From positions 310,001 through 374,000 of IMG/VR virus record IMGVR_UViG_3300049215_000771: 64,000 nucleotides of DNA. One strand, given 5' to 3'. A program made the translations under genes and the position numbers. A model generated the notes under the pieces. The model was not told the origin of the DNA and did no database searches. It saw only the letters and a list, made by a program, of their open reading frames with translations. The stretch's first letter is position 1. Every line of letters begins with the position of its first letter. Origin of the DNA: a virus. Positions 18,256 to 59,295 of the stretch are shown piece by piece.

Positions 18256-18999
18256 ATGGACACAATCGTAACATTTTCTGGCGCTGGATTGTCGAACGAA
18301 TCCGGCATCCCCACGTTCCGAGATTCCAATGGCTTGTGGCACAACCACAAAGTCGAGGACGTTGCCGACCACAAAGCCTGGGAACGACCCGATAATCGTC
18401 AACTCATGCTGGACTTCTACGCCGAGAGGTTCAACAACATTCACTCAGTCCAACCCAATGCCGCCCACTATGCCCTGGCGAAGTTGGAACAGAAATACAA
18501 AGTAATCAACATCACACAGAACATTGATGATCTGTTGGAGAGGGCTGGTTGTACGAATGTCTGGCACCTGCATGGCAGCATCAACTCTCGTAAATGTGAG
18601 TGGCACAAGTCGATCACCAATTTGGATGGCGACATCAACTTCAAATGCGACTATCAAACTGTTCACACGGAGCCGGTCAAGCTGGGTGATTTGTGCCCCA
18701 AATGTGGTGGGCAGTTGCGCCCGGATGTTGTTTGGTTCGGCGAAGCCGTTGACATGAAGTACAAAGAACTGGATGAACTGGCTGCAATCGCCAAGGTTTT
18801 CATCGGCATCGGCACTAGCGCTCAGGTACAACCGGCTGCGGGGTTGTTGTTCACTTTCAGGGTCGCCGAGAAGAAGTATTTCATCGACCTGAAGCCGCCG
18901 TTGAGATTACACAGCTTCACCAGGTTGGAAGGCAAAGCCGGCGACCACATGCCGCCGCTGGCGGAAGAGTTACTTCTTCTTGCTGAAAATAGGACGTGA
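18256..18999 (+). CDS. Sirtuin (Sir2 family NAD-dependent deacylase)
   Basis: 247 aa with all main Sir2 motifs: GAG-x-S-x-ESGIPTFR (9-22), TQNIDDL (87-93), catalytic H106 in HLHGS, RPDVVWFGE (155-163), GTS (186-188). Zinc site: C114, C147 and C150 are clear, and the fourth ligand is probably C131. Sirtuins remove acyl groups from lysines at the cost of NAD. A phage copy may change host protein acylation or lower NAD. GGGAGT lies 11 bases before the ATG, and the tandem structured RNA is in the leader. The 3' end overlaps a small convergent gene by 30 bases. Confidence 0.93.
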   Translation: MDTIVTFSGAGLSNESGIPTFRDSNGLWHNHKVEDVADHKAWERPDNRQLMLDFYAERFNNIHSVQPNAAHYALAKLEQKYKVINITQNIDDLLERAGCTNVWHLHGSINSRKCEWHKSITNLDGDINFKCDYQTVHTEPVKLGDLCPKCGGQLRPDVVWFGEAVDMKYKELDELAAIAKVFIGIGTSAQVQPAAGLLFTFRVAEKKYFIDLKPPLRLHSFTRLEGKAGDHMPPLAEELLLLAENRT

Positions 19000-19185
19000 C
19001 TTCTCCCTGCCCCCGTTCTTCCTAGTCGGGGGCAGTTCTTTTGGATTGATCCCATCCATTGCGGGATGCGGGTGATTCTTCAACACCTGCTCTATCCCGT
19101 CACCTTCGTCATCGACTTGAGACGGACTCACTGGCCCGACAAGTCCACCTGACTCCCTCAGTCTCCACTCACGGTATGAAATCAT
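18970..19185 (-). CDS. Small candidate capsid-cargo protein, 71 aa
   Basis: Starts MISYREWRLRESGG, which fits the tag shared by other small proteins here (aromatic-x-x-W, then LRE followed by Ser, a T4 gp21-type L-x-E site). The rest is polar, ending in a basic SRPIFSKKK. The ATG lies 13 bases after a TATATA element; CCTGGAGG is a possible ribosome binding site. Function unknown. Confidence 0.6.
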   Translation of the reverse strand: MISYREWRLRESGGLVGPVSPSQVDDEGDGIEQVLKNHPHPAMDGINPKELPPTRKNGGREKSRPIFSKKK

Positions 19186-19198
19186 AAAGCCTCCAGGG

Positions 19199-19204
19199 TA
19201 TATA
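19199..19204. promoter_or_regulatory. TATATA element between divergent genes
   Basis: TATATA 14 bases before the minus start (19185) and 32 bases before the plus start (19236). Confidence 0.4.
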
Positions 19205-19235
19205 ATCCTGCACGTTTCAATTGCAACGGAGGCGT

Positions 19236-20849: not shown

Positions 20850-20878
20850 ATCTACCTGCAAGTGTCTTCGGACACCTG

Positions 20879-20892
20879 CTTAATTAGAAAGG
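20879..20892 (+). promoter_or_regulatory. Shared leader motif CTTAATTAGAAAGG before portal gene
   Basis: Identical to the 14 bases before terL. Provides the AAAGGGAG ribosome binding site of the portal gene and ends 10 bases before its ATG. Confidence 0.45.
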
Positions 20893-20902
20893 GAGAATAA
20901 CA

Positions 20903-23470
20903 ATGCCTATTTGGAGTGACTTCTTCAAGTTGTTCACTTATGCCGGCGAGAAAGACCCGCTGGCTAAGAAGAAGGATACACGAAACCTACAAGGTGCCGG
21001 TATCGGTCAACCTGACGTGTATCCAACGCTTGGCGGTGAAGGCCAGGCGGGTGGTGCTGGTGGGGGCCAGGGTCAAGCCCAGCTTCGCCAGTCCTATGAC
21101 ATGATCGACACCACGACTTTGACAAACCGCTCCATGCGGTACAAAGAGTACGAGCGTCTTCGCAACGTCCCGGAAATCGAAATGACCATGACGGTACTGG
21201 CCGATGAAGCCTGTGTAGCAGGCAGTACCCCGATTGCCACACCATTCGGTTTCCAAACCATCGAATCATTGGCTGCCAAGTACAAACCGGAAGAACGCTT
21301 CCTTTGTTACTGCTGGGACAGCCACACTCAAGATTACACGTTAGGCTGGGCCTATCACCCACGCCTAGTCAAAAGAGCGCCAACCGTCACAGTTATACTG
21401 GACGACGGCCACACTTTCACTGTGACCCACGACCACCGCATCATGCGGAAGAATGGTGCCTGGGTTCAGGCTGGCGAGATAGTACGAGGCGATGAATTGA
21501 AGCCTTTCTACCGCCTGCCCGCCAGTTACCGACACACCAAGCAAAAAGCCAAACAATTCCCACGCATCTTCTCCACCAACAAAGGCTGGATCACTGAACG
21601 CCAGTTGTTGGAAGAATGGAAAACCGGCAAGGAAGACCCAAAGCTGGAGAAGGTCAATCGGGCGATGCGCATGATCTGCGGCGGCTTGAACGTCCGTCAG
21701 ATTGCCAGATTGATGGAATATGACTGGCAAACCATTGAGAATTGGCTTCGGGCCGAGGGCTTCTCCCATCGAGAAGTCAAGATTCTATCGAAGCATCGTG
21801 AGTCTCGCCGGGTAGTCGGCGTTCACGAAAGCCCTGAGATGGACGTTTACGATATGTCCGTCGAAGAACACAAGTGTTTTGCCACAGATTGTGTCATCAT
21901 GCACAACTGCCAGAAAGATGAAGAAGGCAACGTATTCAAGGTAATTTGCAGCAGTGCCGCCGCCAAGAAAGAAGTTGAGTTCCTGTTGCGTCATCGGAAC
22001 ATGCTCAACCTGAATCGTTTGTCATGGACCTGGTTCAAGAACTTGTGCATCATGGGCGATTTCTTTGTAGAAACCGTCATCAACCCGGACAGCCCCAAGG
22101 AAGGCATCTACAAGGCCGTGCCACTCCCACCGGAGAGCATGTACCGGATCGAAACAACCAAGGGCAAGCTGATTGAGTTCCAGCAGTCTAAGGAAGGCCC
22201 GGACTACCAGGCTATCGTGCGTGCGCCGATGGTTTCTCAGGCGGGCGAGGCCGAATTGAACCAAAGCATGGCAATTCGCTTTGCCAACAACCAGATCGTA
22301 CACTTCAGGATTGGTGACGACCGCAAAACTTTCTACCCATACGGACAATCCCTCATCGAGCCGGCTCGTAGCCCCGCCCATCAACTGAGGTTGATGGAAG
22401 ATGCTATGGTCGTGTATCGACTTACCCGTGCCCCTGAACGTAGGGTGTTCTATGTGGACGTTGGACAGTTACCTCCGTTCAAGGCTGAAGCCTTCATTGA
22501 AAGGTTGAAGGATCAGTTCAGGAAGCGTAAGATAGCACAGAATAGGGGAGTTCCTGGGGCCAACCAAGTTGAAGAAAGGTGGCAGCCACCCGCCCAGGAC
22601 GAAGATTACTGGTTGCCTATTAGACCGCAAAGCCAGACAAGGATTGAAACGCTTCCGGGTGCGCAGAACCTTGGAGAGATCGACGATGCGATTTACTTCA
22701 GGAACAAGTTGTTTACGGCATTGAACTTCCCAAAAAATTACTTCGCCAACGAAGACCCTGGTGCGACTAGAATTACATTGTCGGCTCAGGATGTGAAGTT
22801 TGCCCGTATGGTGGAGAGGCTTCAAAGCCACTTCGAGGACGGACTGTTGGAATTGGCCGAGAGGCATCTTCAGTTGCGTGGCTACCCGGAGGAAGCCTAC
22901 GAGGATTTGAAGATCAAGATGACCCCACCTTCCGACTGGAGGGAGTTGTCCAGGGCTGAAGTCGTCAACGGACGTTATGGCAATGCGACCACACTCAAGT
23001 CTGGTCAGTTGATGGCTGATTGGGACATCATGGTGAAGATTCTCAAGTTCACGGAAGACGAAGCTGAGGAGATGTTGAGCCGCTTGAAGATTCAGAAGTT
23101 GGAAGACCTGAAGCTACAGGTACTCGCTCAGAACCCACAGTTGTTGGGTATCGGTATTCCTGGACAAGACCCGCAACCCGGACAGGAACTTGGTTCCGAG
23201 CCGGGCGGTCCAAGTCCGAATCCGTCGCCCGATGGCGGCGGTCAGCAGCCGCCTCCCGATCAGGGGGCACCGCCTGCTGCTCCTGGCGGGGACCAACCGC
23301 CTCCAGGTGGCGATCAAGGACCGGCTCCCGCTGGCGCATCGCCTGCTGAGGGAAGTCCGCTACCGGAAGTCGAGCCTGAAGATGTCAAGAAGTTCGATCT
23401 TGAGATTCAGGACTACGAGACAGAGCAGGACGAGGAAGACATCGACCACAGCATAGGTGAAGACAAGTGA
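20903..23470 (+). CDS. Portal protein (gp20 type) interrupted by an intein
   Basis: 855 aa precursor; 623 aa after splicing. The portal is the 12-fold ring for DNA entry at the head vertex. Conserved portal features flank and follow the insertion: RYKEYERLRNVPEIEMT, LMEDAMVVYRLTRAPERRV and YFRNKLFTALNFPKNYF, typical of T4-like gp20. The intein occupies residues 104-335. The first 65 residues include a Gly/Gln-rich stretch. The last 100 residues are Pro/Gly/Gln-rich, then acidic (EQDEEDIDH), longer than T4 gp20. GGGAGAATAAC precedes the ATG. First gene of the plus-strand head cluster. Confidence 0.95.
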   Translation: MPIWSDFFKLFTYAGEKDPLAKKKDTRNLQGAGIGQPDVYPTLGGEGQAGGAGGGQGQAQLRQSYDMIDTTTLTNRSMRYKEYERLRNVPEIEMTMTVLADEACVAGSTPIATPFGFQTIESLAAKYKPEERFLCYCWDSHTQDYTLGWAYHPRLVKRAPTVTVILDDGHTFTVTHDHRIMRKNGAWVQAGEIVRGDELKPFYRLPASYRHTKQKAKQFPRIFSTNKGWITERQLLEEWKTGKEDPKLEKVNRAMRMICGGLNVRQIARLMEYDWQTIENWLRAEGFSHREVKILSKHRESRRVVGVHESPEMDVYDMSVEEHKCFATDCVIMHNCQKDEEGNVFKVICSSAAAKKEVEFLLRHRNMLNLNRLSWTWFKNLCIMGDFFVETVINPDSPKEGIYKAVPLPPESMYRIETTKGKLIEFQQSKEGPDYQAIVRAPMVSQAGEAELNQSMAIRFANNQIVHFRIGDDRKTFYPYGQSLIEPARSPAHQLRLMEDAMVVYRLTRAPERRVFYVDVGQLPPFKAEAFIERLKDQFRKRKIAQNRGVPGANQVEERWQPPAQDEDYWLPIRPQSQTRIETLPGAQNLGEIDDAIYFRNKLFTALNFPKNYFANEDPGATRITLSAQDVKFARMVERLQSHFEDGLLELAERHLQLRGYPEEAYEDLKIKMTPPSDWRELSRAEVVNGRYGNATTLKSGQLMADWDIMVKILKFTEDEAEEMLSRLKIQKLEDLKLQVLAQNPQLLGIGIPGQDPQPGQELGSEPGGPSPNPSPDGGGQQPPPDQGAPPAAPGGDQPPPGGDQGPAPAGASPAEGSPLPEVEPEDVKKFDLEIQDYETEQDEEDIDHSIGEDK
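21212..21907 (+). mobile_element. Mini-intein inside the portal gene
   Basis: 232 codons in frame. The first residue is C (CVAGSTPIATPFG, block A), block B is VTHDHRIM, block F is VYDMSVEEHKCFAT, and block G is DCVIMHN followed by extein C. All splice-junction residues (C1, H in block B, HN at the end, C+1) are present. No LAGLIDADG or HNH motif lies in the linker; instead a helix-turn-helix-like segment (LNVRQIARLMEYDWQTIENW) is found. The insertion sits at a conserved portal stretch (VLADEA then CQKDEEG). Confidence 0.95.
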
Positions 23471-24738: not shown

Positions 24739-25083
24739 TCAAGTGTTAGGCATTTCTCCGTGCGCCGAGTCCGCACTGTTCGGAACTACCACGTCACCAT
24801 CACCATGATCGAACCCATGACCGAAGGACGCTCCCATGCGTGGCTTCTTCTTGCTGGGCTTCGGGTGGGCGTTCTTGTGATTCATCTTGTCCAGTTCGAT
24901 CTGAATGTCCGGGTCTTGTTTGGCAAGACGTTGTAGAAACGAGACTACTTCGGAGTGATATTTCTCGGCGGCGTGCTGAAGCGCCTTCATGATACCACTT
25001 TCTTCCCCATCCTTGTCGTCGGCCTGATCGACATCCAGAAAGCTATTTTCCTTCAAACCTACGAACTGACTGAATGTTTTCAT
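24739..25083 (-). CDS. Candidate capsid-cargo protein, 114 aa
   Basis: Begins MKTFSQFVGLKENSF, very close to the T4 internal-protein leader MKTYQEFIAE, with L-x-E at residues 10-12. The middle is helical (MKALQHAAEKYHSEVVSFL); the C-terminal 40 residues are basic then His/Gly/Asp-rich. Encoded next to the head operon on the opposite strand. GAGGGATT precedes the ATG. Function unknown. Confidence 0.65.
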   Translation of the reverse strand: MKTFSQFVGLKENSFLDVDQADDKDGEESGIMKALQHAAEKYHSEVVSFLQRLAKQDPDIQIELDKMNHKNAHPKPSKKKPRMGASFGHGFDHGDGDVVVPNSADSAHGEMPNT

Positions 25084-25257: not shown

Positions 25258-27207
25258 ATGAAAAGAAAACTCATCAGCTTCGATGTCTTCAAGAAGATCG
25301 AGGAAGGCTCAATTTCCACCGCCCAGCACGAGTTGGCCGGTGCGGAAGAAGTGTTGTCCAAGACCTTGGGCGTCGATGAACTGAGGCTGCACTGCTTTGG
25401 AGAATCGGATGTAACTTACCAGAGCTTGGACGGCAGCTTCGTTCATGCAAATTACAAGATCAACAAGAACCAGCTTGTACTTGAGAACATCGAGTCGTTG
25501 GTCATTGAGGAAGAAACCGAGAAGAAGAAAGCTCGTGACGTACTCACCAGCATGGTGGAATCCCTGCTGGACAACAACGAAGCTAAGGCATCCGAACAAT
25601 TCGAGAATTACCTTTCTTTGCCCGTCGTTCGCCGGGATTTGATCGTTTCTGAAGCCTTTGATGTTTCAGTATCCAAACCATCTGGCAAACATTCTTCCCT
25701 GTACGGCAAGAAACAAGATCGTGGCCTAGTTGCCAAGCGTATCCGTGAGATGAAGAAGACCAAGAAGAAGCTAACTGCTGCTCCAAGTCTTCGTGCATCC
25801 GTCGCCAAGAAACGTGCCAACGCCGCCAAGAAGCTCGGCGGGGCCAACAATCCACGGTGGCGCACTTACGCCCGCAAGGTGAAGCCGACAACCATGAAGG
25901 AATGGTCGGTGATGTGCGAACACATCATGGACTACCTGGATTACAAAGAATTCGGCCCAACCATCAAGGAATCCCTCGTTCAGAACGATGAGAAGGGTAA
26001 TGTCGTAGCGGTCGCCATGCCGACTATCCAGAAGCGTAACGAAGGCAAGATTTTGTCCTTCAACTGGAAGACTTTGGATCACGAAGTAAAAACCCAGCGA
26101 GCCAAGATCAAGCGGCTTGCCGAGGACACGAACTTCTGCAAGGCGATGGCCGATCTGAAGCGTTACAACAACATTTCCGACAATACAGCACTTGAAGAAA
26201 CGCTGGAGAAGATTGTCTCCATGTGGCCTGATGTTTTGTATCTGACTCAGACCGAGTTGGCAGAACAGATCGGCGCTGCTTTGGAAACTGCGGCTGTCAA
26301 GAATTACGACGACCAGACCTGTGAGTTCATGGCGGAAGGCATCTTGAGGATGGCTCACCACGCCTACACGGATCGGGTTCGCAAGATTTCCAGCATGGCT
26401 GGCGTTTCCCCGGAAGCAACTACCGAAAGCACTGAGGAGAAGGACGCTTACGCCAACTTCGCCAAGGTGTGTGCCGACTTCTACCCACAGTTGGACGAGT
26501 CGGATCAGGCCGAGTTGAGGGTTTTTGCTGATCTCTACAAGGCTTTGCACGAAGTCTTCCGCATTGCATCTGAAACTGGCGATGAAGCTACTCGTAGTGA
26601 GGTTGCCAGCTACTTGAACAATTGCGAAGCGATCTTGAACCGTGAAAGCCAGCCAGATTTGAGTCTGGCCGAAACAATTGCCAATTATTTGTACGACCTG
26701 GCGGAAGCCAATGTGGAAGGGGCCAAGGACACTTGGGACGTTTCCAACAGTGACGTTCACACCACGGTCAGCGGCGATCACCCACGCATGTCTTGGGCTG
26801 CGAAGGTAACAAATGCTGTTCCTTCCAACTTCCCAGGCGATTGGGGCGGCAAGGCTCCAGTTTCGGACGGCAAGAGCTACCGCAATGGCCTCGAAGACGA
26901 AATGAGGAGCCGTTCGTGGAGCCAGTACGCCAGCGGTGAAACTTACCCGGATTTGAAGAACCCATATGTTCCGAAGTCTCCGTGGGATGTTGGCAATTAC
27001 AAGATGAAGGGTGAGGAAAGCGCTGCAACCGCTGGAACAAGCGATTGGAGCCGTTGGCAGTCGAAAGATACCTGGCCAAACCTCCAGAATCCATACGTTC
27101 CTGACTCGCCTTGGGATAAGAGCAAGTACAAGGCCACCATCGACAAGGGCAACCTGGTTGTGGACAAGGGCGAGACGAAGCAGGGCAGCGTAAAAAACCA
27201 CTTCTAA
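25258..27207 (+). CDS. Large head-operon protein with NPYVP repeats, 649 aa
   Basis: Between portal and prohead protease, so probably a head or core component. Parts: N-terminal leader MKRKLISFDVFKKIEEGS (with I-x-E before G, like a gp21 site); a basic segment (about 160-220; KKTKKKLTAAP); a long helical domain; and a C-terminal repeat region with two units reading YPDLKNPYVPKSPWD and WPNLQNPYVPDSPWD. The same NPYVP unit occurs in the small 41097 gene. No enzyme motif. Start ATG 25258 with AGGGAG upstream. Not identified with a named T4 protein. Confidence 0.7.
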   Translation: MKRKLISFDVFKKIEEGSISTAQHELAGAEEVLSKTLGVDELRLHCFGESDVTYQSLDGSFVHANYKINKNQLVLENIESLVIEEETEKKKARDVLTSMVESLLDNNEAKASEQFENYLSLPVVRRDLIVSEAFDVSVSKPSGKHSSLYGKKQDRGLVAKRIREMKKTKKKLTAAPSLRASVAKKRANAAKKLGGANNPRWRTYARKVKPTTMKEWSVMCEHIMDYLDYKEFGPTIKESLVQNDEKGNVVAVAMPTIQKRNEGKILSFNWKTLDHEVKTQRAKIKRLAEDTNFCKAMADLKRYNNISDNTALEETLEKIVSMWPDVLYLTQTELAEQIGAALETAAVKNYDDQTCEFMAEGILRMAHHAYTDRVRKISSMAGVSPEATTESTEEKDAYANFAKVCADFYPQLDESDQAELRVFADLYKALHEVFRIASETGDEATRSEVASYLNNCEAILNRESQPDLSLAETIANYLYDLAEANVEGAKDTWDVSNSDVHTTVSGDHPRMSWAAKVTNAVPSNFPGDWGGKAPVSDGKSYRNGLEDEMRSRSWSQYASGETYPDLKNPYVPKSPWDVGNYKMKGEESAATAGTSDWSRWQSKDTWPNLQNPYVPDSPWDKSKYKATIDKGNLVVDKGETKQGSVKNHF

Positions 27208-27219: not shown

Positions 27220-27906
27220 ATGAACAAAGAAGAGTTGCAACTACTCATTGAATGTTGCTCAGTTCCCGGCTGCTACATGGAAATGAATCTGCACGAGTCA
27301 TCTGACAGGAAGTCGGGATTGACTAGGTTCAGGGGAAAATTTCAGGAAGCCGAGGCTGTCAACAAAAACAAACGGATGTACCCACACGCCGTCCTTGACG
27401 AAAACGTGAAGAAATTACAAGAAGTGGTTTCTGCGAAAGGTCTGGTAGGCGAGTTGGACCACCCAACGGACAGCATCATCCATTTTGAGAAGGCGTCCCA
27501 CGTCGTCACTAGATTGTGGTGGGAAGGCAACAACTTGATGGGTGAAGGCGAGATACTACCTACGCCATGTGGTGAGATTCTAAACGCTCTCATTAAAAGC
27601 GGCGTGCGAGTCGGTATCAGCAGTAGGGGAGTCGGCAGTGGAAAAGTTGATGAGAATGGAATTCTCGTCATCAGTGATAGCTACAAGCTAATCACTTTCG
27701 ACGCCGTGGCCGATCCTAGCACCTTCAACGCTTTTCAGGCGAAGATAGGTGGAAAGAGCGAAACTTACATTCCCACTCAAAATACCAGAAGTGCTGCGAA
27801 AAACGAAAGTAGCAGCATACATAAGGTAAATAAGGACGCACTAATTGCTTGTTTGGGTGGGATCATCACTAAGGAAACTAGCACAATCAAAGCGAGGTTA
27901 GGCTAA
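27220..27906 (+). CDS. Prohead maturation protease (gp21 type)
   Basis: 228 aa serine protease that matures the prohead and cleaves scaffold, capsid and internal proteins, in T4 after (L/I)-x-E. Catalytic His in GELDHPTD (about residue 80) and nucleophile Ser in VGISSRGVG (about 131) follow the S77-type order. It precedes scaffold and capsid genes, the same order as T4 21-22-23. GGAGCC is upstream, and the stop overlaps the scaffold ATG (TAATG). Confidence 0.92.
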   Translation: MNKEELQLLIECCSVPGCYMEMNLHESSDRKSGLTRFRGKFQEAEAVNKNKRMYPHAVLDENVKKLQEVVSAKGLVGELDHPTDSIIHFEKASHVVTRLWWEGNNLMGEGEILPTPCGEILNALIKSGVRVGISSRGVGSGKVDENGILVISDSYKLITFDAVADPSTFNAFQAKIGGKSETYIPTQNTRSAAKNESSSIHKVNKDALIACLGGIITKETSTIKARLG

Positions 27907-28805
27907 TGGACAAGATTGTAGAAGCACTGAAGAAGCTACTGCCTGATTCCGAGGTTAGCGAAGTTGCCGGTGCGGTGAAGGATATGTTGGAGGCAGCGAA
28001 GGCTGAACTCGAAGCTGAGTACAACGCAAAGTTGGAAGAAGCCTACACCGAGCTATCCACCGAACTTGCAACAGCCGAGAAGACCGCCGAAGCAGGCTAT
28101 CAGGAAGCGTACTCCATTATTGGAGAGTTGCGCAATCGCCTGGAGCTTCAGGGTGAGGAATACAAGCACGCACTGGAAGAAGGCTACGAAGAAGCCTACC
28201 AGATGCTCAAGGGTGAACGTGACAAGAACAACACCCTCGAAGTCGAAATGTACGAGGAGTACGACCGCAAGCTGGCCGAGATGAAGGAATACATTGTCGA
28301 TAAGGTCGATCAGTTCCTTCGGTTCAAGGGCGGCGAGATTTATGAGCAGGCCAAGCGAGACATTTTGAATGACCCACGCATGGCTGAACACAAGGTCGCA
28401 CTCGACAGAATTGTGGACATCACTTCTCAGTATCTTTCTGATGAAGATTTCAACGGCGCTACTTCTTCTAAGCTAGACGAAGCAATGAAGGCTGTTGAAG
28501 AAATGAAGGGACAACTCCGAATTATGGAGGCCCGGAACATCAGACTTTCAACAGAGAATACTAAGTTGAATGAGACTGTCCGCCAGGCTCAGGAATTGAT
28601 TACTGAGTCCCGTAGGACTGCTTCTTCCGAGAAGAAGGAAGCCGTCATTACAGAACAGAAAGAAAGAGCGCAGAAAGCAAAGAACGTAACGGGGAGCGGA
28701 CATACCGTCGATAAGACGGATGGGGTGGTTATTGCGGAATATGCCAACCCCGATCACGAGATGAACGATTTGCTCGTTCTCTCTGGAGTTAAGAAGACCC
28801 AATAA
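27906..28805 (+). CDS. Scaffold (prohead core) protein, gp22 type
   Basis: 299 aa, almost entirely acidic coiled coil (long runs such as AKAELEAEYNAKLEEAY), with the low aromatic content expected of a core protein removed by the protease. Translation is coupled to the protease by TAATG. Several L-x-E or I-x-E sites are available for cleavage. C-terminus ends DLLVLSGVKKTQ, which could contact the shell. Confidence 0.88.
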   Translation: MDKIVEALKKLLPDSEVSEVAGAVKDMLEAAKAELEAEYNAKLEEAYTELSTELATAEKTAEAGYQEAYSIIGELRNRLELQGEEYKHALEEGYEEAYQMLKGERDKNNTLEVEMYEEYDRKLAEMKEYIVDKVDQFLRFKGGEIYEQAKRDILNDPRMAEHKVALDRIVDITSQYLSDEDFNGATSSKLDEAMKAVEEMKGQLRIMEARNIRLSTENTKLNETVRQAQELITESRRTASSEKKEAVITEQKERAQKAKNVTGSGHTVDKTDGVVIAEYANPDHEMNDLLVLSGVKKTQ

Positions 28806-28842: not shown

Positions 28843-30279
28843 ATGAACGCAAATTCCAAATTCCTGAACGAAGCTAGAGAGTTGGAAGGTCGTTGGGGCA
28901 AGACTGGCCTCTTGGAAGGCATTGAAGATCGCTACATCCGATCCGCCACCGCCGTTCTGCTTGAAAACCAGCGCCTCATGAACGAAGTTTCGACCGACAC
29001 TGGCGACATCGCTCAGTTCAAGCGTATCAGCATCCCGTTGGTACGTCGTATTTACCCGCAGCTAATTGCTAACAAGATTGTATCTGTTCAGCCATTGCTC
29101 GGCCCAACAGGTTTGGTGTACTACCTGCGCTTCCGGTACTCGTCCAACAAGGGCGCTACTCGTGGAGCGGACAACAACGGCGGCTTCCCGGCTGACGATG
29201 TGAACACCCTCATGCAGTTGGCTGATGGTACTGCCAACTTGGACATTTTCTACACGCACCAGTTCGTGCAGAACGAGTCCACCAGCACCGACAACGGTGG
29301 CAACGTCACTTCGGCGTACAGCCCGTTGGAACACACCCCGATCCTGGCCGGCACCATCACGGGCACGATCTATGACGGCTCCCTCGCAGTGCAGACCTTC
29401 GTGGTTTCCTCGACCGGAACCTTCACCTTCTCCAACATCGGTAGCCCAGCTACCTACGTCACCGCTGGTTCTTTGAACCTGACGACTGGCGAGTTGGTGT
29501 TGACTTGGAACTCGGCCCCAGGCCCGAACCACGCTGTACTTTCCTACGAGTACAACATGGAATGTCAACAAGATTTGCCGGAAATCAACTTGGTCATTGA
29601 GTCGGAAGAAATTGCCGCCAAGACCCGCAAGTTGAAGGCTGTATGGTCCTACGAAGCGCAGCAGGACTTGCGCTCGCAGCACAACCTCGACGCCGAGGCT
29701 GAGTTGACGGCTGTATTGGCCCAGGAAATCAACCTCGAAATCGACCGTGAAGTGTTGACGGACCTCCGTAACAACAGCGGTACGGTAGCGGCATGGGATT
29801 TCAACACGGCATTGGGCGAAACCATCAAGGAGAAGTATGAGTCGCTGTATGTGAAGGTTGTTGAAATCAGCAACGTCATCCACAGGAAGACTCTTCGTGG
29901 TGGTGCAAACTGGATGGTAACTTCCCCTGAAGTTGCTTCCATCTTCGAGACGGCAACCGCTGGTTTCGCACCGGCTCCATCTGAGACGTTCACTTCGTCG
30001 CTGGGTATCCAGTACGTCGGAACCGTCAACAACAGGTGGCGGTTGTACAAAGACCCGTTGTTCCCATCGAACCAGATTCTCATGGGGTACAAGGGTGATT
30101 CTTACATGGATTCGGGTTACTTCTATTGCCCCTACGTCCCGCTCACGCAGACGCCTGTGGTTTTGGACCCTGAGTCCTTCTGTCCGAGGAAGGGTATCCT
30201 TACACGTTACGGGAAGAAACTGTTGCGTGAAGGGGCCAAGTTCTACGCCAGGATGTCCATCGCCAACTTCGTCATCTAA
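28843..30279 (+). CDS. Major capsid protein (gp23 type)
   Basis: 478 aa. T4 gp23 landmarks: N-terminal arm with SATAVLLENQRLMNE, then RRIYPQLIANKIVSVQPL, GPTGLVYYLRFRY, and the C-terminal NQILMGYKGDSYMD followed by GYFYCPYVPL and KGILTRYGKKLL. An immunoglobulin-like insertion around 165-240 is Thr/Ser-rich. The N-terminal arm is presumably cut by the prohead protease. AAGGAAATAG precedes the ATG. Its last 10 codons and following 30 bases are repeated at 31261-31320, and residues 408-440 are echoed in the 41369 gene. Confidence 0.96.
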   Translation: MNANSKFLNEARELEGRWGKTGLLEGIEDRYIRSATAVLLENQRLMNEVSTDTGDIAQFKRISIPLVRRIYPQLIANKIVSVQPLLGPTGLVYYLRFRYSSNKGATRGADNNGGFPADDVNTLMQLADGTANLDIFYTHQFVQNESTSTDNGGNVTSAYSPLEHTPILAGTITGTIYDGSLAVQTFVVSSTGTFTFSNIGSPATYVTAGSLNLTTGELVLTWNSAPGPNHAVLSYEYNMECQQDLPEINLVIESEEIAAKTRKLKAVWSYEAQQDLRSQHNLDAEAELTAVLAQEINLEIDREVLTDLRNNSGTVAAWDFNTALGETIKEKYESLYVKVVEISNVIHRKTLRGGANWMVTSPEVASIFETATAGFAPAPSETFTSSLGIQYVGTVNNRWRLYKDPLFPSNQILMGYKGDSYMDSGYFYCPYVPLTQTPVVLDPESFCPRKGILTRYGKKLLREGAKFYARMSIANFVI

Positions 30280-35427: not shown

Positions 35428-36462
35428 ATGAGAATCGCATCATTCACCATGTTCGGCCAATACCCACATGGGATTGACCTTCATGTTCGCAACCTGAAGT
35501 GGGCGCTCACAAAAGACGACCATGTTTACATTGTCACGCTTCCGAAAATCATCGAGGATTTCAAACTGGAAAGTGGTGGCAACGTCACTTACATTCCGTT
35601 CCATCATATTGATGAAGGCGACTTCATCAATTTTTGGGCCGGGTTTCCGGGCATCATCAAGAACCTGAACATCAAACCGCAATGGTTTCAGTTCATGGAA
35701 GGCGACATCTGGTTCCACAAGAAGCCAGGGTTCGTGCCGAGAAACCCGAAGGAAATAGCCAACTACCTGCCGCTGCAAACCCACTACCATGCGGTCATGG
35801 CAGGCAACAAGCTGTTGCAGCCAAGGGTATGGGAAGGCGGCACGCTCGTTCATGGAGATGTCGTTCGTCGGGCCATCGACAACGACATCTCTTTTTCTTT
35901 CGTCAAGGAGTTCTTCTGCGAGTTCGATCCCGACTATTGGGAAGACCTGATGGGCGGTAGGATCAGCCTGCGCTATTTCAAGGCTCCAGACACATTCGAC
36001 GAGTTCAACCTCTACTGTGCCCTAATCGAAAAAAGCAAGATTTGCCACTTCGACCGGGCCGTTCATCTTCGAGGCCCGGAGAGTTTACACCGAAAATTTC
36101 CCCATCTCTACAACACTTGTACTGACGAACAATTGGTAGAACCATCGAAGGTTTTGCCCTACCTGTGTGTGTATGGCGCAATCGCACCGTACTACATTGA
36201 TGGTCACTGGAAAGGCATGATCCAGTGGCACAAAATGAAGCCTGAGTTTCAGAAGGAATTCGTGCGTTTACTGCCGACTGCGAGCGAATGGATGAAGCCA
36301 GAAGAATATGTGCGCCTGGTGGAGATCACAGAAGCGATCAGAAATAAGGATCACCCTTTGTCCAATCCAGCCCCAGCATCTCCTTCACTTTGGGTAAGAC
36401 CCTCCAAAGTTCGTAATCGTCGTATTCGTGGACGGTGGGCACCCAATCGCAAACATCTATGA
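35428..36462 (+). CDS. Glycosyltransferase-like protein
   Basis: About 344 aa. The N-terminus (RIASFTMFGQYPHGIDLHVRN) and a central GDIWFHKKPGF suggest a sugar-nucleotide transferase, though a clear DxD is not seen. The last 40 codons overlap the convergent HAD gene by 125 bases and read as low-quality basic sequence (VRNRRIRGRWAPNRK), so the functional protein probably ends near residue 303 and the natural stop may have been lost. The start context CTAAATAGGGGTATGA is identical to that of the 42827 gene. Confidence 0.6.
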   Translation: MRIASFTMFGQYPHGIDLHVRNLKWALTKDDHVYIVTLPKIIEDFKLESGGNVTYIPFHHIDEGDFINFWAGFPGIIKNLNIKPQWFQFMEGDIWFHKKPGFVPRNPKEIANYLPLQTHYHAVMAGNKLLQPRVWEGGTLVHGDVVRRAIDNDISFSFVKEFFCEFDPDYWEDLMGGRISLRYFKAPDTFDEFNLYCALIEKSKICHFDRAVHLRGPESLHRKFPHLYNTCTDEQLVEPSKVLPYLCVYGAIAPYYIDGHWKGMIQWHKMKPEFQKEFVRLLPTASEWMKPEEYVRLVEITEAIRNKDHPLSNPAPASPSLWVRPSKVRNRRIRGRWAPNRKHL

Positions 36463-37012
36463 AATGCTTTTCGGCTTTCTTGATGACTTCCTTGGCGACG
36501 GCTTTGGGGTCTTTCTCCTCAGCGCCGATGCCAAGGATTCGCATTTTGTTGGTGATTTCAACACTGTGAACATCTAGGTTGTCGATCAGCAACCACTTCC
36601 TGCCAGCCAGGTGATACTTCTCAGCAAGTTCGCCTGGCTTTGTTTCTTTGGCGCTGTGCATTCCCTTGACGTATTTCGACCAGCCCAACACTTCAACGAC
36701 TTTCTCAACGTAGTCGATGCGGCTGTGGCTCAAGATGATGAAATCGGCGAACTTGGAAATGGCTTTGACGAGGTTGGTCGCTCCGGGTCGTGGAAACAAG
36801 TACATATCCTGATCTTCGGCATGGATCAGGCGCACATCCGGGTAGGGCTTCTTGTTTGGAACGATCATTTTGGCAAATTCTTTGTTCTGTGGATGGTCCT
36901 TCAGCCAGCCAATTTCCATATTGTGAACGAGGGTTTCGTCCAGATCGGAGAACACGGCGGGGCGTCCACTTTCATTTTGTTCAAGCCAAAGGCCAAATTG
37001 CATGAGGTTCAT
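36338..37012 (-). CDS. HAD-family phosphatase with cargo-like leader
   Basis: 224 aa. HAD motif I FSDLDETLVHN (nucleophile D23, D25), motif II ILSHSR, motif III/IV region WLLIDNLDVHS. Substrate not resolvable; could be a nucleotide or polynucleotide 3'-phosphatase-type enzyme. The first 16 residues (MNLMQFGLWLEQNESG) precede the HAD fold and match the candidate capsid-targeting tag. ATAAATACC lies 10 bases upstream of the ATG, close to the T4 late consensus. Confidence 0.85.
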   Translation of the reverse strand: MNLMQFGLWLEQNESGRPAVFSDLDETLVHNMEIGWLKDHPQNKEFAKMIVPNKKPYPDVRLIHAEDQDMYLFPRPGATNLVKAISKFADFIILSHSRIDYVEKVVEVLGWSKYVKGMHSAKETKPGELAEKYHLAGRKWLLIDNLDVHSVEITNKMRILGIGAEEKDPKAVAKEVIKKAEKHFIDVCDWVPTVHEYDDYELWRVLPKVKEMLGLDWTKGDPYF

Positions 37013-37036
37013 CGCAAGGTATTTATCGCTGCACCG

Positions 37037-37043
37037 TATATAT
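37037..37043. promoter_or_regulatory. TATATA element plus ATAAATACC between divergent genes
   Basis: The spacer 37013-37047 has ATAAATACC (minus strand, just upstream of the HAD start) and TATATA just before the dTMP kinase ATG. No other signal seen. Confidence 0.4.
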
Positions 37044-37047
37044 TTGC

Positions 37048-37809
37048 ATGGTGAGTCTCGATGGTTTCACAGAGTATGTCTTCAACGAGAGCGTTGAAGT
37101 AATTGATGCAAAGAAGCAAGTCCGTGATATTCTCAAGCAAAAGCGGGCCACAAACAGGAAAGGTCTTCTTATTTGTTTCGAGGGTATCGACGGAGTAGGC
37201 AAAACTACGCAGGTTGACAAATTGATGGATTACCTGGACGGTAAGGGATACGAAGTCATCCACACCAAATGGAACTCTTCCCCCTTGCTCAAAAAACCCA
37301 TCAAGAAAGCCAAAGAAAAACATATGCTCACGCCGATCTTGTACTCGCTGCTGCACGCTGCCGACATGGTGGTGAGGTACGAGAACGAGATCGTGCCGGC
37401 CTTGAACGCCAACAAGATCGTAGTTTCCGATAGATATATCTATACATCTATGGCTCGTGACTCGGCGAGGGGCGTTGACACGGGCATCTTAGAGAAAATA
37501 TACGCCGATATTCGCCAGCCGGATATTTTGTTCCATTGCGTATTGCCCATCCATCGAGCCTTCCATCGCCTCGTCAAAGAAAAAGACCTGACCTACTACG
37601 GCGTCGGCATGGATTTGAACCTTGCGGACAACATGGAAGACAGCTACATTAAATACGAGAACCTGGTAGACAAGGCTTACCGGCGCATCCTGCCGAAAGT
37701 CACCAGCTACGTCAAACTCGACATGGGCAAAAGCATTGAAGAAATTGCCCTGGAAGTCGAGCGTGTTGTCAAAGAAAAAACAGGCATCGGCAAGTACAAG
37801 AAGGATTGA
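37048..37809 (+). CDS. tmk: Thymidylate kinase-like enzyme
   Basis: 253 aa; phosphorylates dTMP to dTDP for DNA synthesis. P-loop FEGIDGVGKTT at 44-54, DR motif VSDRYIYTSMARDSARG (about 126-142), and a LID region near DLTYYGVGMDLN. An extra N-terminal 37 residues precede the kinase fold. Other deoxynucleotide kinases have a similar core, so the exact base is inferred from motif similarity. Followed by DUF4031 and a small gene in one operon. Confidence 0.85.
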   Translation: MVSLDGFTEYVFNESVEVIDAKKQVRDILKQKRATNRKGLLICFEGIDGVGKTTQVDKLMDYLDGKGYEVIHTKWNSSPLLKKPIKKAKEKHMLTPILYSLLHAADMVVRYENEIVPALNANKIVVSDRYIYTSMARDSARGVDTGILEKIYADIRQPDILFHCVLPIHRAFHRLVKEKDLTYYGVGMDLNLADNMEDSYIKYENLVDKAYRRILPKVTSYVKLDMGKSIEEIALEVERVVKEKTGIGKYKKD

Positions 37810-42565: not shown

Positions 42566-42579
42566 GTCTACATACCTAC

Positions 42580-42822
42580 ATGAAGACATTTCTCGAATGG
42601 CTGAAATTACGAGAAGAAGGCGGCTTGTTCGGCAACCCAGGCACACCCTATCCCGATGGCTTGACGCCCACCACTTCTAAGAAACTTGGCCCCAACAAAG
42701 GCAAACTCGACAATTCCGGCATGAGCGGCGGTCCTGGTCGCAAAAGTGCTGGTGGAATGCCTGCGGCTGGTGGTGCGCCCATTCCTCCCGCTGGTGGAAA
42801 TACCCCTGCACCACCTAAATAG
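42580..42822 (+). CDS. Candidate capsid-cargo protein, 80 aa
   Basis: Begins MKTFLEWLKLREEGGLFG, the best match to a T4-like capsid-targeting leader with L-x-E. The rest is Gly/Pro/Asn-rich, probably disordered. The ATG lies in CATACCTACATGA, a sequence also found at 46381-46393. Four bases separate its stop from the C39 peptidase ATG. Confidence 0.6.
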   Translation: MKTFLEWLKLREEGGLFGNPGTPYPDGLTPTTSKKLGPNKGKLDNSGMSGGPGRKSAGGMPAAGGAPIPPAGGNTPAPPK

Positions 42823-42826: not shown

Positions 42827-43429
42827 ATGATTAGTTTCAGGACATGGCTTGAAGAACATGATGATTTTGAGGCAGAAGCCGGACCCCACATCAAAGTGCT
42901 GCTGCCGAGCGTTAAACAAAGCAGCAACTACGACTGCGGTGCTGCTGCGCTTCGTGCCATAGCGGAATACTTCAAAGTCGGCCCTGAGAAGGAAGCCGAC
43001 TTCATCAAGGCTTGTAAAACCACCAAGAAGGACGGCACCGACCCGGATGGCATCATCAGGGCGGCTCATGCCTTCGGCCTCAACACCAGGGCCAAGGCGG
43101 GGATGTCCATTGAGGAATTGAAATCCTTCCTAGACATGGGCAGGCCCATCATGTGTCTGATTCAAGCCTACGGCGAGCCAGACGAGTACCACAAGCCACA
43201 AAGCGGGCACTACGTCAATGCCATCGGTTACGACGGCAATCACATCTATTTTGAAGACCCGTCAATGAAAGGCAACCGTGGGATGTTGCCTTTCAAGGAA
43301 TTCAAGAAACGCTGGCATGACAAAGGCGAGGGAGGCAAAAGCTACACCCGCTGGGGCGTCGTCATCTGGAAGCAGTCCGACGAAGGAACTGATCGAGAAT
43401 ACGTTCCCCAGGCGAAGAAGATTCCATGA
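42827..43429 (+). CDS. C39-like cysteine peptidase with capsid-targeting-like leader
   Basis: 200 aa. Leader MISFRTWLEEHDDFEAEAG, then a C39 fold: Q31 and C37 in QSSNYDCGAAALRAI, H128 in SGHYVNAIGYD, D144 in YFEDPS. Complete catalytic set. C39 domains cut peptides after double-Gly leaders or act as general cysteine peptidases. The leader suggests packaging into the head and delivery with the DNA. The end overlaps the convergent tail tube gene by 68 bases. Confidence 0.85.
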   Translation: MISFRTWLEEHDDFEAEAGPHIKVLLPSVKQSSNYDCGAAALRAIAEYFKVGPEKEADFIKACKTTKKDGTDPDGIIRAAHAFGLNTRAKAGMSIEELKSFLDMGRPIMCLIQAYGEPDEYHKPQSGHYVNAIGYDGNHIYFEDPSMKGNRGMLPFKEFKKRWHDKGEGGKSYTRWGVVIWKQSDEGTDREYVPQAKKIP

Positions 43430-47952: not shown

Positions 47953-48513
47953 TTACTCACTTCCGGGGCTGTGGAACTTGATGTTTTTGTCAGCCCATTC
48001 GATTGCCATGTGAAGACCACGAGCGAGCAAGCCAACAAGTTGGGTGGGGTTGCCACTTCCCTCGATGGCGATGTTATCTCGTTCATTGTCTTCGATCCAA
48101 ACCAAAGCGAAGCACAAGTTATCTCGTTTCTTGAGTTCGCCGGCCATCTGGCGGATTGTAGTGAGTGACAGATCGGGCAAACCAAGTTCTTTCTGCTTGG
48201 CTTTCGCCAAAGTTCCTGTTTCCTGGATGGTAACGAACATCTTGGTCAGCACTTGGCAGCAACGAATACGAGACTCCTCATCCCCCTCTATAACAAGGTG
48301 GTAAGTCACGATTTCGGGGTTATTTTGGTCAGGGAAAGTCAGCAACTTGCAGCCATGTGTTTCAGTTATTTCAGTCACGAAGGAAGAAATAGCGGAAACA
48401 ATAGCTTGTCCATTGCATCGAAATGTAACATAGGTATCATTGTCGGAATCGGTTACGGTCAATCCTTGGAACCGTCCGATGGTTTCCAACAGAATGTCAA
48501 AATCCTTCATCAT
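47953..48513 (-). CDS. Unknown protein, 186 aa
   Basis: Not recognised. Alpha/beta; segments GLTVTDSDNDTYVTFRCNG, EIVTYHLVIEGDEESRIRCC and a helical C-terminus. ATGATG start overlaps the stop of the SWIM protein gene, so it is translated together with it. Confidence 0.6.
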   Translation of the reverse strand: MMKDFDILLETIGRFQGLTVTDSDNDTYVTFRCNGQAIVSAISSFVTEITETHGCKLLTFPDQNNPEIVTYHLVIEGDEESRIRCCQVLTKMFVTIQETGTLAKAKQKELGLPDLSLTTIRQMAGELKKRDNLCFALVWIEDNERDNIAIEGSGNPTQLVGLLARGLHMAIEWADKNIKFHSPGSE

Positions 48514-49046
48514 CCCTCCAATAGACCGGCGTGGTCGAGCGATTGTACCAATTTGATTAGGTGCTTGCACATTCCCGGCATTTCCAGCGGGTTTGCCGGT
48601 GGTCCTCCCGCAGCTTCGTACCTTCTTCGCTTGCTTCCGTACAGCGACCGATCCAGGTGGTCATAGTAATTGAATCTCCACCTGAAATCAGCGCAGTCAC
48701 ATCTCAACAGTACGTCGTTTTCTGCATAGCTCAATCGTTCAAGCACATAATGCAATCCATCACTGGCTACAATCTCGACCCAATCCTGATGCTCCTTCTC
48801 AGGATGGTAGCGGACTTGTTTGAACAATACCATCGGCTGGTACACTTTCCCTGACTCACCACTCTCAGCAGTGCCCTTGATGAACAAAGTTTTCACGCCA
48901 ACGAACGGAGTCCAAGATAGCTCCACAATCTTCACAGGGTCTATGGCATGTTGCCTTTTTGTTGTGCGAGGAAACGCTGCCACCGTACTCTGGTAAAGAT
49001 CATTGAGAGAGGATTCGTCCAAGTGCATCCAGTCGATGAACCGCAT
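48510..49046 (-). CDS. SWIM zinc-finger protein with cargo-like leader
   Basis: 178 aa. SWIM motif CDCADFRW ... PGMCKHLIKL (CxCx(n)CxH), a DNA- or protein-binding zinc finger. The N-terminus MRFIDWMHLDESSL fits the tag motif (W, then L-D-E before Ser). Middle region beta-rich. Could be head-packaged and act on host DNA or protein after entry; that is inference. Confidence 0.72.
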   Translation of the reverse strand: MRFIDWMHLDESSLNDLYQSTVAAFPRTTKRQHAIDPVKIVELSWTPFVGVKTLFIKGTAESGESGKVYQPMVLFKQVRYHPEKEHQDWVEIVASDGLHYVLERLSYAENDVLLRCDCADFRWRFNYYDHLDRSLYGSKRRRYEAAGGPPANPLEMPGMCKHLIKLVQSLDHAGLLEG

Positions 49047-49089
49047 GAAGATATGTATCCCAGGTAACTACAATACTGGTAGGAGGAGT

Positions 49090-55873: not shown

Positions 55874-55878
55874 ACAAG

Positions 55879-55884: not shown

Positions 55885-55894
55885 GGTGAACCAT

Positions 55895-56101: not shown

Positions 56102-56109
56102 TTATTTCT

Positions 56110-56190: not shown

Positions 56191-56195
56191 GAAAA

Positions 56196-56999: not shown

Positions 57000-57030
57000 C
57001 AGAAATCCATTCCTAAAGACTACATAGTTC

Positions 57031-57258
57031 ATGCGACTATCCTTCAAGGATTGGCTTCATGAGGCAGATTCTTTCTCGAATACACCAGATGGTGCGGGAG
57101 AGATATGGGATAACAATTCCAACGCCGACCGTGGCTTCGGGCGCTCAGGTGCGAAAAGCAAAAACGTGAGCAAAGGAGTCACACCGGAACGAGCGGATTT
57201 CGACCCGGACGAGCTATACCTTGGCAAACAGCAGAAGAAGGGCTGCAAAAAGAAGTAA
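57031..57258 (+). CDS. Candidate capsid-cargo protein, 75 aa
   Basis: Begins MRLSFKDWLHEADSF, with W then L-H-E before Ala, an ideal T4 gp21-type site. The rest is polar and Asn/Gly-rich, with a basic Cys-containing end (KQQKKGCKKK). Unknown function. Confidence 0.65.
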   Translation: MRLSFKDWLHEADSFSNTPDGAGEIWDNNSNADRGFGRSGAKSKNVSKGVTPERADFDPDELYLGKQQKKGCKKK

Positions 57259-57275
57259 GCAGCATAAGGAGATAA

Positions 57276-58160
57276 ATGTCTATTCAACCCAATTACCCAC
57301 TGTTCGACCCGGCATTCAACGCCAGTGTTACGGGTGAAAGCTACGAGAACCCGACGAACACGGTCTACACTCCTCCGGTGCTAGGTACTGGCAACCCCGA
57401 TCCTGTGTATGACCCTGCGTTCGCCGAATATGTAGAAGGAACTCCGTATGAGGACGCTCCCAATGGTCCCGCCATTGTTCCTTACTACAGCCCGGACTAC
57501 AACCAGAAGAAAACAGGTAACGCCTACCAGACGCAGGGTACGGTTTACAATCAGCCGCCAGCCCAGCCTTCGGCACAGCCAACTGGCGTGTACGGACCAG
57601 CGTTTTTCAGTGCCAACTTGCATCAGTCCTACCAGGCAGCAGGCCAGCAGTATAACACTGTAACTGGTCAGTCTACGGGCGACCCGGACCCGGTGTATGG
57701 CCCGGCATTCGCTGCGGCTGCTACGCAGCAGTCGTACCAGCCGGATGGTCAGGTAAACGACAGCCAGGTTGTCAGCCCGGTCATTACCTTCCAGGTCAAT
57801 CTGCTCAATCCGTTGCTTCCAGGTGGAGATTTGCCGCCTAACAGGACCAGCTTGGATGGAAACGAAATTGTTTCGGAAGCGAACAACCAATTGGCTACAA
57901 GGACCGTTTGGTTCCCGGATATGGTCGTCAACAGCGACGGCAGCACTGGTGGTTCACCGGCTGTTGAAGGTATTGGTGGAATTTTCGCCGGACAAAATGG
58001 CAACGGGCAAAACGGCGCAAGCTACAACCACCCGCAGGGCTACCTGCATCACGGTTCGCTATTCACTGTCAAGGGGCAAAGGGCTATGTACTTGAAGAAC
58101 CTCTTCGTGTCGAATCCGCCAGCACCGGCTGATTTACTCATCGTTGTTTCTCAGTCGTAA
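57276..58160 (+). CDS. Virion protein with PAF repeats, 294 aa
   Basis: N-terminal half has four repeats of about 30-45 residues built on a core (D/G)PAF: YPLFDPAFNASVTGESY, PDPVYDPAFAEYVEGTPY, GVYGPAFFSANLHQSY, DPVYGPAFAAAATQQSY. The C-terminal half is a beta-rich domain (GIFAGQNGNGQNGASYNHPQ). Likely structural. GGAGATAA precedes the ATG. Confidence 0.65.
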   Translation: MSIQPNYPLFDPAFNASVTGESYENPTNTVYTPPVLGTGNPDPVYDPAFAEYVEGTPYEDAPNGPAIVPYYSPDYNQKKTGNAYQTQGTVYNQPPAQPSAQPTGVYGPAFFSANLHQSYQAAGQQYNTVTGQSTGDPDPVYGPAFAAAATQQSYQPDGQVNDSQVVSPVITFQVNLLNPLLPGGDLPPNRTSLDGNEIVSEANNQLATRTVWFPDMVVNSDGSTGGSPAVEGIGGIFAGQNGNGQNGASYNHPQGYLHHGSLFTVKGQRAMYLKNLFVSNPPAPADLLIVVSQS

Positions 58161-58181
58161 CCTCTAGCCAAAGGTGGTGGA

Positions 58182-58544
58182 ATGGCCGTGTCGTTTCAAA
58201 AACTATGGGAAAGCATGGAGTCCGCCCGCAAGGGCGGACACCACCTTGATGACAAGGCGATGGAAGCCATTCGCAACGGTATCAACGTCCGGGAGGATTT
58301 TTGGGAAGACTTTATGTTAGTCATCAACAACTCCGGGGCGATGTCGGTATTGCTCGATGTGCCGGTCACTAAAATCGGCGCTTGGCATCAAAGGGTGAAA
58401 GAAGCACTGGACAAGGTGAAAGCCGCTGACACGGTGCCGGACCCGAAAGACAAAAGCAACCTGATGAAAACAGGAATGCCGAAAGAAGATGACGAAACCG
58501 ATCCGAAGGTTACTGTCCTCAATCAAATGGGTGGAGAAGAATGA
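58182..58544 (+). CDS. Unknown head-cluster protein, 120 aa
   Basis: Not recognised. Begins MAVSFQKLWESMESARKGG, a weak fit to the tag motif. Helical, acidic C-terminus. Overlaps the next gene (ATGA). Confidence 0.55.
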   Translation: MAVSFQKLWESMESARKGGHHLDDKAMEAIRNGINVREDFWEDFMLVINNSGAMSVLLDVPVTKIGAWHQRVKEALDKVKAADTVPDPKDKSNLMKTGMPKEDDETDPKVTVLNQMGGEE

Positions 58545-58915
58545 AATCGCTATGTGAATGGCGTCTCGCCAACTCCGACCCGGATTGGGAGAAAGTAAAA
58601 AGTACATGGGGTGGTGGAAAGAAGACTCTCGATCCGAATCTCGTCAACAAGATGAGAGTCAAGATCGAAGGAATCAAGGAATGGTTTGTGCGTGAACTTG
58701 GAGAGCCAAAAATCACCAGCTTCCGTGACGTTCCGCCCAACATGCGTGATTCCTTGGCTCAAGCTATCGTGGCGGCAACGATGAAAGTCTTCTACACAGA
58801 AGGTGGGGATGTGCCGGGCATGGCAACCATCGACCAGACAAAAAGTCAACAACCAAATGTTCCAGCCCCGCAACCACAAAATCAAACAAGCGCACCAGCG
58901 GGATGGAAGGGATAA
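58541..58915 (+). CDS. Candidate capsid-cargo protein, 124 aa
   Basis: Begins MKSLCEWRLANSDPDW; W7 fits the tag, but L-x-E is absent in the first 15 residues. Middle helical; C-terminus Gln/Pro/Asn-rich. TAATG overlap with the next gene. Unknown function. Confidence 0.55.
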   Translation: MKSLCEWRLANSDPDWEKVKSTWGGGKKTLDPNLVNKMRVKIEGIKEWFVRELGEPKITSFRDVPPNMRDSLAQAIVAATMKVFYTEGGDVPGMATIDQTKSQQPNVPAPQPQNQTSAPAGWKG

Positions 58916-59295
58916 TGATGAGAAAGTTTCACGAATGGGTTAATCTGCGTCTTCGAGAAGATGGTACTGTTCCAGGCACTCCACAGATGAGTCCTGGCGG
59001 AAATACACCAATGCCTTTGGGACACGCTCACGGCGATCCAAATCCTGGTTCTGGAGGCGCTGGGGCTGCGGGTGGGCCTCCACAAAACAACCAGGGCCAA
59101 AGTGGTAGCGAAGACGAATCCGTACTTACTGGCAATTTGGAACGCCACTTCAATATGCTCATGACCGATCTTAGCAAACTCAACAGAATGAACAAGGCGA
59201 AAGCCGGCGAGATTTTGAATCACATCATGCAGGCCATGTCGCAACTCGGCGTACAAAAAAACGTCGCAACTAACGCCGTTAAACAAAACTTCTAA
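58915..59295 (+). CDS. Candidate capsid-cargo protein, about 126 aa
   Basis: ATGATG start; the protein begins MRKFHEWVNLRLREDGTV (W7 and L-R-E). Middle Gly/Pro/Asn-rich, C-terminal 50 residues helical (LERHFNMLMTDLSKLNRMN). Ends the four-gene run 57276-59295, closed by a terminator. Confidence 0.6.
   Translation: MMRKFHEWVNLRLREDGTVPGTPQMSPGGNTPMPLGHAHGDPNPGSGGAGAAGGPPQNNQGQSGSEDESVLTGNLERHFNMLMTDLSKLNRMNKAKAGEILNHIMQAMSQLGVQKNVATNAVKQNF

Follow-up and report, generated by a model that had tools for sequence, protein, structure and literature searches.

Organization of the window

The window, the whole stretch of DNA analyzed here, is 64,000 nucleotides long and comprises bases 310001–374000 of a 532,729-base virus record. 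It carries a T4-type portal, head maturation protease, and major head protein arranged in T4 order, and a gp21-family protease and T4-type head genes occur within one genome. The gp21-like protease that a sequence-only reading of the window had placed at 27220 was confirmed by its family match. The head genes and their neighbors are as follows.

20903–23470, + strand: T4-type portal protein (match 4.3e-75)
25258–27207, + strand: 649-aa protein between portal and protease; start MKRKLISFDVFKKIEE, leader-like by eye
27220–27906, + strand: gp21-type head maturation protease (PHROG head maturation protease, 8.6e-49); its own start is MNKEELQLLIE
27906–28805, + strand: 299-aa protein without a family match, at the position of T4 scaffold gene 22
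28843–30279, + strand: major head protein (4.8e-82)

We take the 649-aa protein to sit where the T4 map has genes 67/68. A search with the major head protein found relatives on 337 contigs, of which 80 were kept. The closest record by this protein was LR756511 (595 kb; 81.5% identical), and the head protein of LR756508 shared 44% of residues over 68% of its length.

Nine window proteins had been proposed to share a capsid-targeting leader like that of T4 internal proteins. These genes, together with two others whose starts resemble the leader by eye, are listed below with any TA[ACT]ATA box noted upstream.

18970–19185, − strand: 71-aa protein; leader MISYREWRLRE (orthologue L025:133–327, MISFREWRLRE); box TATATA at 19199–19204, 19 nt 5′ of the ATG, plus GGAGG
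24739–25083, − strand: 114-aa protein (the slot protein) between the portal and the 649-aa protein; leader MKTFSQFVGLKE
36338–37012, − strand: 224-aa NIF/HAD-type phosphatase (NIF, 1.2e-8); leader MNLMQFGLWLEQNE; box TAAATA at 37020–37025
37048–37809, + strand: 253-aa thymidylate kinase (Thymidylate_kin, 4.7e-22), divergent from the 37012 gene across a common 35-bp intergenic stretch; start MVSLDGFTEYVFNE, leader-like by eye only; box TATATA at 37037–37042
42580–42822, + strand: 80-aa G/P-rich protein; leader MKTFLEWLKLRE (LR756511 counterpart: GTG start, KTFREFLQVRE); box TACATA at 42569–42574
42827–43429, + strand: 200-aa C39-type peptidase (C39, 6.1e-12); leader MISFRTWLEE; box TAAATA at 42816–42821
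48510–49046, − strand: 178-aa protein with a C-x-C...C-K-H stretch, presumably SWIM-like (one homologue is annotated SWIM-type); leader MRFIDWMHLDE; box TACATA at 49052–49057
57031–57258, + strand: 75-aa protein; leader MRLSFKDWLHE (gene at this place in LR756511: start MNFKQWFQERV); box TACATA at 57021–57026
58182–58544, + strand: 120-aa protein; related start MAVSFQKLWES, spacing 4, by eye (LR756511 orthologue: MTFLEAWESV)
58541–58915, + strand: 124-aa protein; leader MKSLCEWRL, without L-x-E (gene at this place in LR756511: start MKSYREWKADGDDQLNE)
58918–59295, + strand: 125-aa protein; leader MRKFHEWVNLRLRE

All nine proposed leaders were located exactly, each at an ATG (42580, 42827, 57031, 58541, and 58918 on the + strand; 19185, 25083, 37012, and 49046 on the − strand). 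The aromatic spacing described for them held in 8/9, with F/Y at about residue 4 and W/F three residues on at about residue 7; the exception, 58541, has L-x-x-W. L-x-E, expected in most leaders, is encoded in seven and missing from 37012 and 58541. The original list was real but incomplete, as the starts at 25258, 37048, and 58182 also look leader-like by eye; these score only 0.4, 1.1, and 1.2, respectively, on the leader profile used below because their aromatic pair occupies other positions. Our home-made gene caller kept 7/9 leader genes and missed 19185 and 49046. Scored on their first 20 residues, these two reach 13.2 and 12.5, respectively, and orthologues bearing the leader occur in L025 (for 19185) and in LR756511 and L084 (for 49046).

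Enrichment of the leader at protein starts

The leader profile was trained on the nine window leaders only, and expected counts were derived from windows inside the proteins being scored. A profile search of the full phage proteome had been proposed as a check on the leader family; in the rest of this genome (200 kb), 14/290 starts scored at least 5, compared to 1.73 expected. The corresponding values were 42/770 (5.40 expected) for LR756511, of which 445 kb was scored, and 74/750 (5.05 expected) for 82 IMG/VR loci of related contigs, where orthologues were counted repeatedly. At scores of at least 8, there were 16 starts in LR756511 (0.34 expected), 3 in the rest of the genome (0.05), and 26 in the IMG/VR loci (0.33). 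The window itself gave 8/79 at 5 or above (0.64 expected), but the profile was trained there and one of these eight hits (2693–3649) resembles a signal peptide. Enrichment agreed between two gene callers, with the earlier gene set included; the totals for G000 and LR756511 depend on the home-made caller. Scaling from the excess at 5 or above, we extrapolate to roughly 40 tagged proteins for the present phage and 49 for LR756511.

Among five T4-related phages, of which T4 was one and each of which was scored over 50 kb, 4/272 starts reached a score of 5 (1.8 expected) and 1/272 reached 7. Because these phages show little or no excess, the leader is not a general trait of T4-like phages. LR756508 likewise had no excess at 5 or above (1/59, 0.67 expected) and had 9/59 starts at 3 or above compared to 3.14 expected; starts such as MKFKELLKEQ and MRLKEILLEN in this record may be a variant of the leader.

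It is extremely improbable that chance, or the composition typical of protein starts, accounts for the leader. The profile cut-offs do let some such starts through, amounting to the 5.40 expected among the 42 in LR756511, but the excess in that genome rises steeply with score, the real starts of T4-related phages seldom match, and shuffled starts gave few matches. Internal windows, shuffles, and the starts of other phages thus refute chance or composition as a full account.

Some individual hits scoring 5–6 are chance matches. The example given is L003:43819 (6.6), which is probably a primase; a DNA primase is among the matches listed, with the member unnamed.

Correspondence with T4 targeting and processing residues

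In T4 IPIII, head targeting is described as a property of the first ten residues, with mutants assigning targeting chiefly to residues 4 and 7 and processing to residues 8 and 10 (as presented in PMC9026906). The residues shared across the window leaders are these same targeting and processing residues. When the profile was applied to T4 60–110 kb, ipI, ipII, and ipIII were the top three of 63 called genes, with scores of 5.2, 3.4, and 3.4; the latter two fall under the counting cut-offs, and the match with T4 is therefore one of rank and residues and not of close sequence. The T4 start given for comparison in the sequence-only reading, MKTYQEFIAE, is that of ipII and ipIII, and ipI starts MKTFKEF.

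For the cleavage site, starts were chosen from profile columns through the second aromatic only, with the window excluded. Hydrophobic-x-E occurred at +2 to +9 of the second aromatic in 59/111 of these starts compared to 412/2220 internal windows, and about half (52/111) lacked it. The position of E peaked at +5 (21) and +3 (17), and A and S were the commonest residues following it. Opposite T4 gp23 FLTE65, the major head protein has LMNE, LFNE, or LINE (LMNE in the window) in an alignment read by eye. The L-x-E of the 49046 family is no evidence of cleavage, because the motif is also present in RAS14, XacN1, and L071 relatives that have no aromatic leader. The earlier T4-like interpretation thus stands with respect to the key residues, the ranking of ipI–III, the T4-type head genes, and the unrelated bodies discussed below, and falls short where L-x-E is absent (2/9) or undiagnostic (the 49046 family). 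A role of the leader as a targeting and processing signal is likely and well supported by sequence.

A signal for some other site, such as a phage nucleus or a membrane, is very unlikely. The N-terminus is short, hydrophobic, and probably helical, and amphipathic helices are able to bind membranes. The leader nevertheless fits the T4 residues and ranked the T4 internal proteins first, to our knowledge T4 forms no nucleus, and enrichment of hydrophobic-x-E would have no role at such a site. We rejected the reading of the leader as a nucleus import signal.

Conserved leaders on changing bodies

The 22 hits in this genome fall into 22 clusters, so the leader precedes unrelated bodies and common ancestry of the tagged proteins is ruled out; the 42 hits in LR756511 form 41 clusters. 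The slot gene at 25083 allowed comparison of leader and body across loci. The window and 41 of 60 loci made up the set, after exclusion of 6 loci without a called opposite-strand gene, 12 near-identical repeats, and, beforehand, L100, in which the slot gene has no leader; the start was shifted to an internal Met in 5/42, and L058 and L071, which depart from the strict pattern, were counted as misses. The aromatic pair is kept in 40/42, with E at +5 in 29/40 and D in 7. Identity was 0.40 in the leader, a value raised by anchoring the alignment on the aromatics, compared to 0.24 in the body.

A DNA- or RNA-level signal, either a promoter or a translation start that incidentally encodes the leader residues, might be considered on the grounds that an upstream box often abuts the ATG (see below), but is highly improbable. 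In the slot leaders, codons vary while residues are kept (TTT/TTC, TAT/TAC, several L/V/I codons, GAA/GAG) and hydrophobic residues interchange, and we rejected a DNA-level signal on this variation.

Other families gave related pictures. The C39 proteins, with 45–48% identity overall, all keep F4 and W7, and the linker after the leader varies in length; in three HAD proteins, F6, L8, W9, L10, E11, and E14 are invariant. For the 49046 protein, the leader is present in the window, LR756511, and L084 and absent from L071, L079, and L090, and the relatives in RAS14 and XacN1 have a different start. In L029, a leader-bearing C39 protein adjoins a 44% identical C39 protein without one. Because the 49046 family and the L029 pair differ in the leader, it seems that a pre-existing protein can acquire or lose the tag.

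Identities of tagged proteins

Three of the family lists used show 25 families each, out of 45, 56, and, for the defence library, 49. Tagged proteins include C39 peptidases (leader scores 14.1, 8.9, and 7.2), HAD phosphatases (11.0, 9.7, and 6.8), an AAA_33 kinase-like protein (7.6), and, in relatives, an 861-aa UvrD helicase (11.2) and a tRNA nucleotidyltransferase (7.9). Also among the matches listed were an FMN reductase (5.8), a MoxR-type ATPase (5.7), and an acyl transferase-like protein (5.4), with weaker leaders on HAD_SAK_1 (4.6) and SpoVR (4.2) proteins. The recurrence of RNA-end enzymes hints at a possible tRNA-repair load. The HAD protein had no match among the phage records searched, and the C39 protein had no relative in viral_contigs, the one in L029 coming from the head-protein scan. 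A structure model of the HAD protein was poor (mean pLDDT 53.6, ~33 in the leader region), and nothing was drawn from it. Matches listed from the defence library were mainly helicase models against one member and support no claim.

Past residue 15, the nine window proteins (71–224 aa) have calculated pI values of 5.5 to 10.1. As a set, they are not small basic proteins like IPI–III, and for this reason we class the leader, and not the bodies, with T4.

Tagged proteins might instead build the prohead core, like T4 gp67/gp68, being targeted and cut without serving as active cargo. The 649-aa protein beside the protease has a leader-like start in 55/60 loci (aromatic pair at residues 8/11), with hydrophobic-x-E around residues 14–18 in 35/60, and among the tagged proteins are several small ones that belong to no known family. 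We consider this explanation unlikely for the tagged proteins as a whole, as recognizable enzymes carry the tag (C39, HAD phosphatase, UvrD, tRNA nucleotidyltransferase, and AAA_33 kinase-like), tagged genes are scattered over the genome, and bodies vary from phage to phage. Some tagged proteins could nonetheless be core components rather than ejected cargo.

A late-promoter-like box upstream of leader genes

TA[ACT]ATA was found within 60 nt 5′ of 64/98 leader genes compared to 277/1650 others, an excess that was present in all four A+T bins and best of 60 permutations. The 98 proteins were obtained from 108 by removing 12 (three doubtful and nine slot orthologues) and adding the SpoVR (4.2) and HAD_SAK_1 (4.6) proteins. 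The box starts 10–14 nt 5′ of the ATG in 36 leader genes and 55 others. Conversely, genes picked solely by a box 9–14 nt before the ATG had leader scores of at least 3 in 61/121 cases compared to 183/1773. Eight of the twelve listed window genes have a box, 10–13 nt 5′ of the ATG in six. A Shine-Dalgarno sequence precedes 8% of box-abutting genes compared to 70%, a difference that is partly mechanical because the box occupies those same few bases.

Late-gene promoters are given as TATAAATA for T4 and NATAAATA for a cyanophage (PMC2984593). The late sigma family phrog_234 is matched in this genome (3.5e-8) and in LR756511 (7.4e-8). From the position of the box, we infer that transcripts may start at or beside the ATG, giving leaderless mRNAs, and that the tagged genes would be expressed late.

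Discussion

We think it probable that the leader acts as a capsid targeting sequence of the T4 type, deployed on a large scale, with bodies that are freed in the head and enter the next host with the DNA. The aromatic pair near residues 4 and 7 would dock each protein on the prohead core during core assembly, the gp21-type protease would cut behind hydrophobic-x-E to leave the body free inside the head, and the freed body would be packed along with the DNA and then enter the next host with it. Each phage of the group would carry a few dozen such proteins, including enzymes, compared to three (plus Alt) in T4. Core binding, cleavage, packaging, and ejection are predicted steps; on this reading, the particle probably contains the tagged proteins and delivers them to the host cell.

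Judged from the genes, the system represents a greatly enlarged version of the one that T4 uses for its internal proteins. It resembles IPI, IPII, and IPIII in the position and kind of the aromatic pair, the hydrophobic-x-E that follows, the gp21-type protease, and the placement of one leader on unrelated bodies. Unlike the three T4 proteins, the few dozen here prefer W as the second aromatic, have E at +5 besides +3, include enzymes and proteins of up to several hundred residues that are not all basic, and mostly have their own late-like box near the ATG. For P1 DarB, an N-terminal stretch is likewise described as sufficient to send a reporter into the head (PMC9024508), but DarB has another sequence and is one large protein, and P1 is not known to have a separate scaffold. 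The giant phages phiKZ and SPN3US also carry numerous proteins inside the head, with cleavage after x-x-E in some of them, but the passages concerned mention no common aromatic leader (PMC9026906, PMC10052503); in SPN3US, cleavage is after A-x-E and 42 head proteins were judged uncut (PMC10052503). The capsid tag, its function in T4, and its spread onto further basic proteins in T2 and T6 are already known from the portions of the literature consulted; we found no account of a capsid tag in huge phages in those portions, which included parts of PMC3012670, PMC9391042, PMC7162821, PMC7824862, and PMC13282480.

The phage proteins that host defences encounter first are the injected ones, and most of these have gone unrecognized because they have no sequence in common. 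A real tag of this kind would mark injected proteins in the genomes of phages that have never been grown and would provide cargo lists open to testing, with enzymes among them whose delivery by T4 is not known. A broader proposal, to which we give about an even chance, is that in this widespread huge-phage clade the T4 capsid tag now serves as a general export code. In each genome, a few dozen unrelated proteins (C39 peptidase, HAD phosphatase, UvrD helicase, and nucleotide and RNA-end enzymes), many from genes with an ATG-abutting late-type box and no Shine-Dalgarno sequence (perhaps giving leaderless late mRNAs), would be loaded into the head, delivered at time zero, and swapped by gain and loss of the tag. 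If this is true, the cargo of an uncultured phage would be readable from its sequence.

Leader variants and relatives

In LR756508, a virus more distantly related by its head protein, the starts MKFKELLKEQ, MRLKEILLEN and MSVRFKQLLFE may represent a leucine variant of the leader, the short N-terminal putative capsid-targeting tag; 9 of its 59 starts reached a leader-profile score of at least 3, compared to 3.14 expected. On L029, a related viral contig, two C39 proteins are encoded side by side, one with the leader and one without:

L029:17136-17756 (+), C39 protein
L029:18520-19095 (+), C39 protein

Other window proteins and an intein

Proteins with a single N-terminal hydrophobic stretch, resembling membrane-anchored or secreted proteins:
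window 2693, 8776, 17338, 19236, 44146, 53310, 54931

The start of the protein at 18256-18999, MDTIVTFSGAGLSNESGIPTFR, presumably resembles SIR2-type deacylases. The portal protein (20903-23470) is 855 aa long, and its stretch CVAGSTPIATPFG, near residue 103, has what we take to be a likeness to an intein start.

At 36338-37809, 35 bp are common to the divergent phosphatase and thymidylate kinase genes and contain two opposed late-promoter-like boxes. The window kinase is uninterrupted, unlike its orthologue on a related contig (L024:4121-5944 (-)), which is split by a Hint plus LAGLIDADG homing endonuclease domain; this insertion is an intein.
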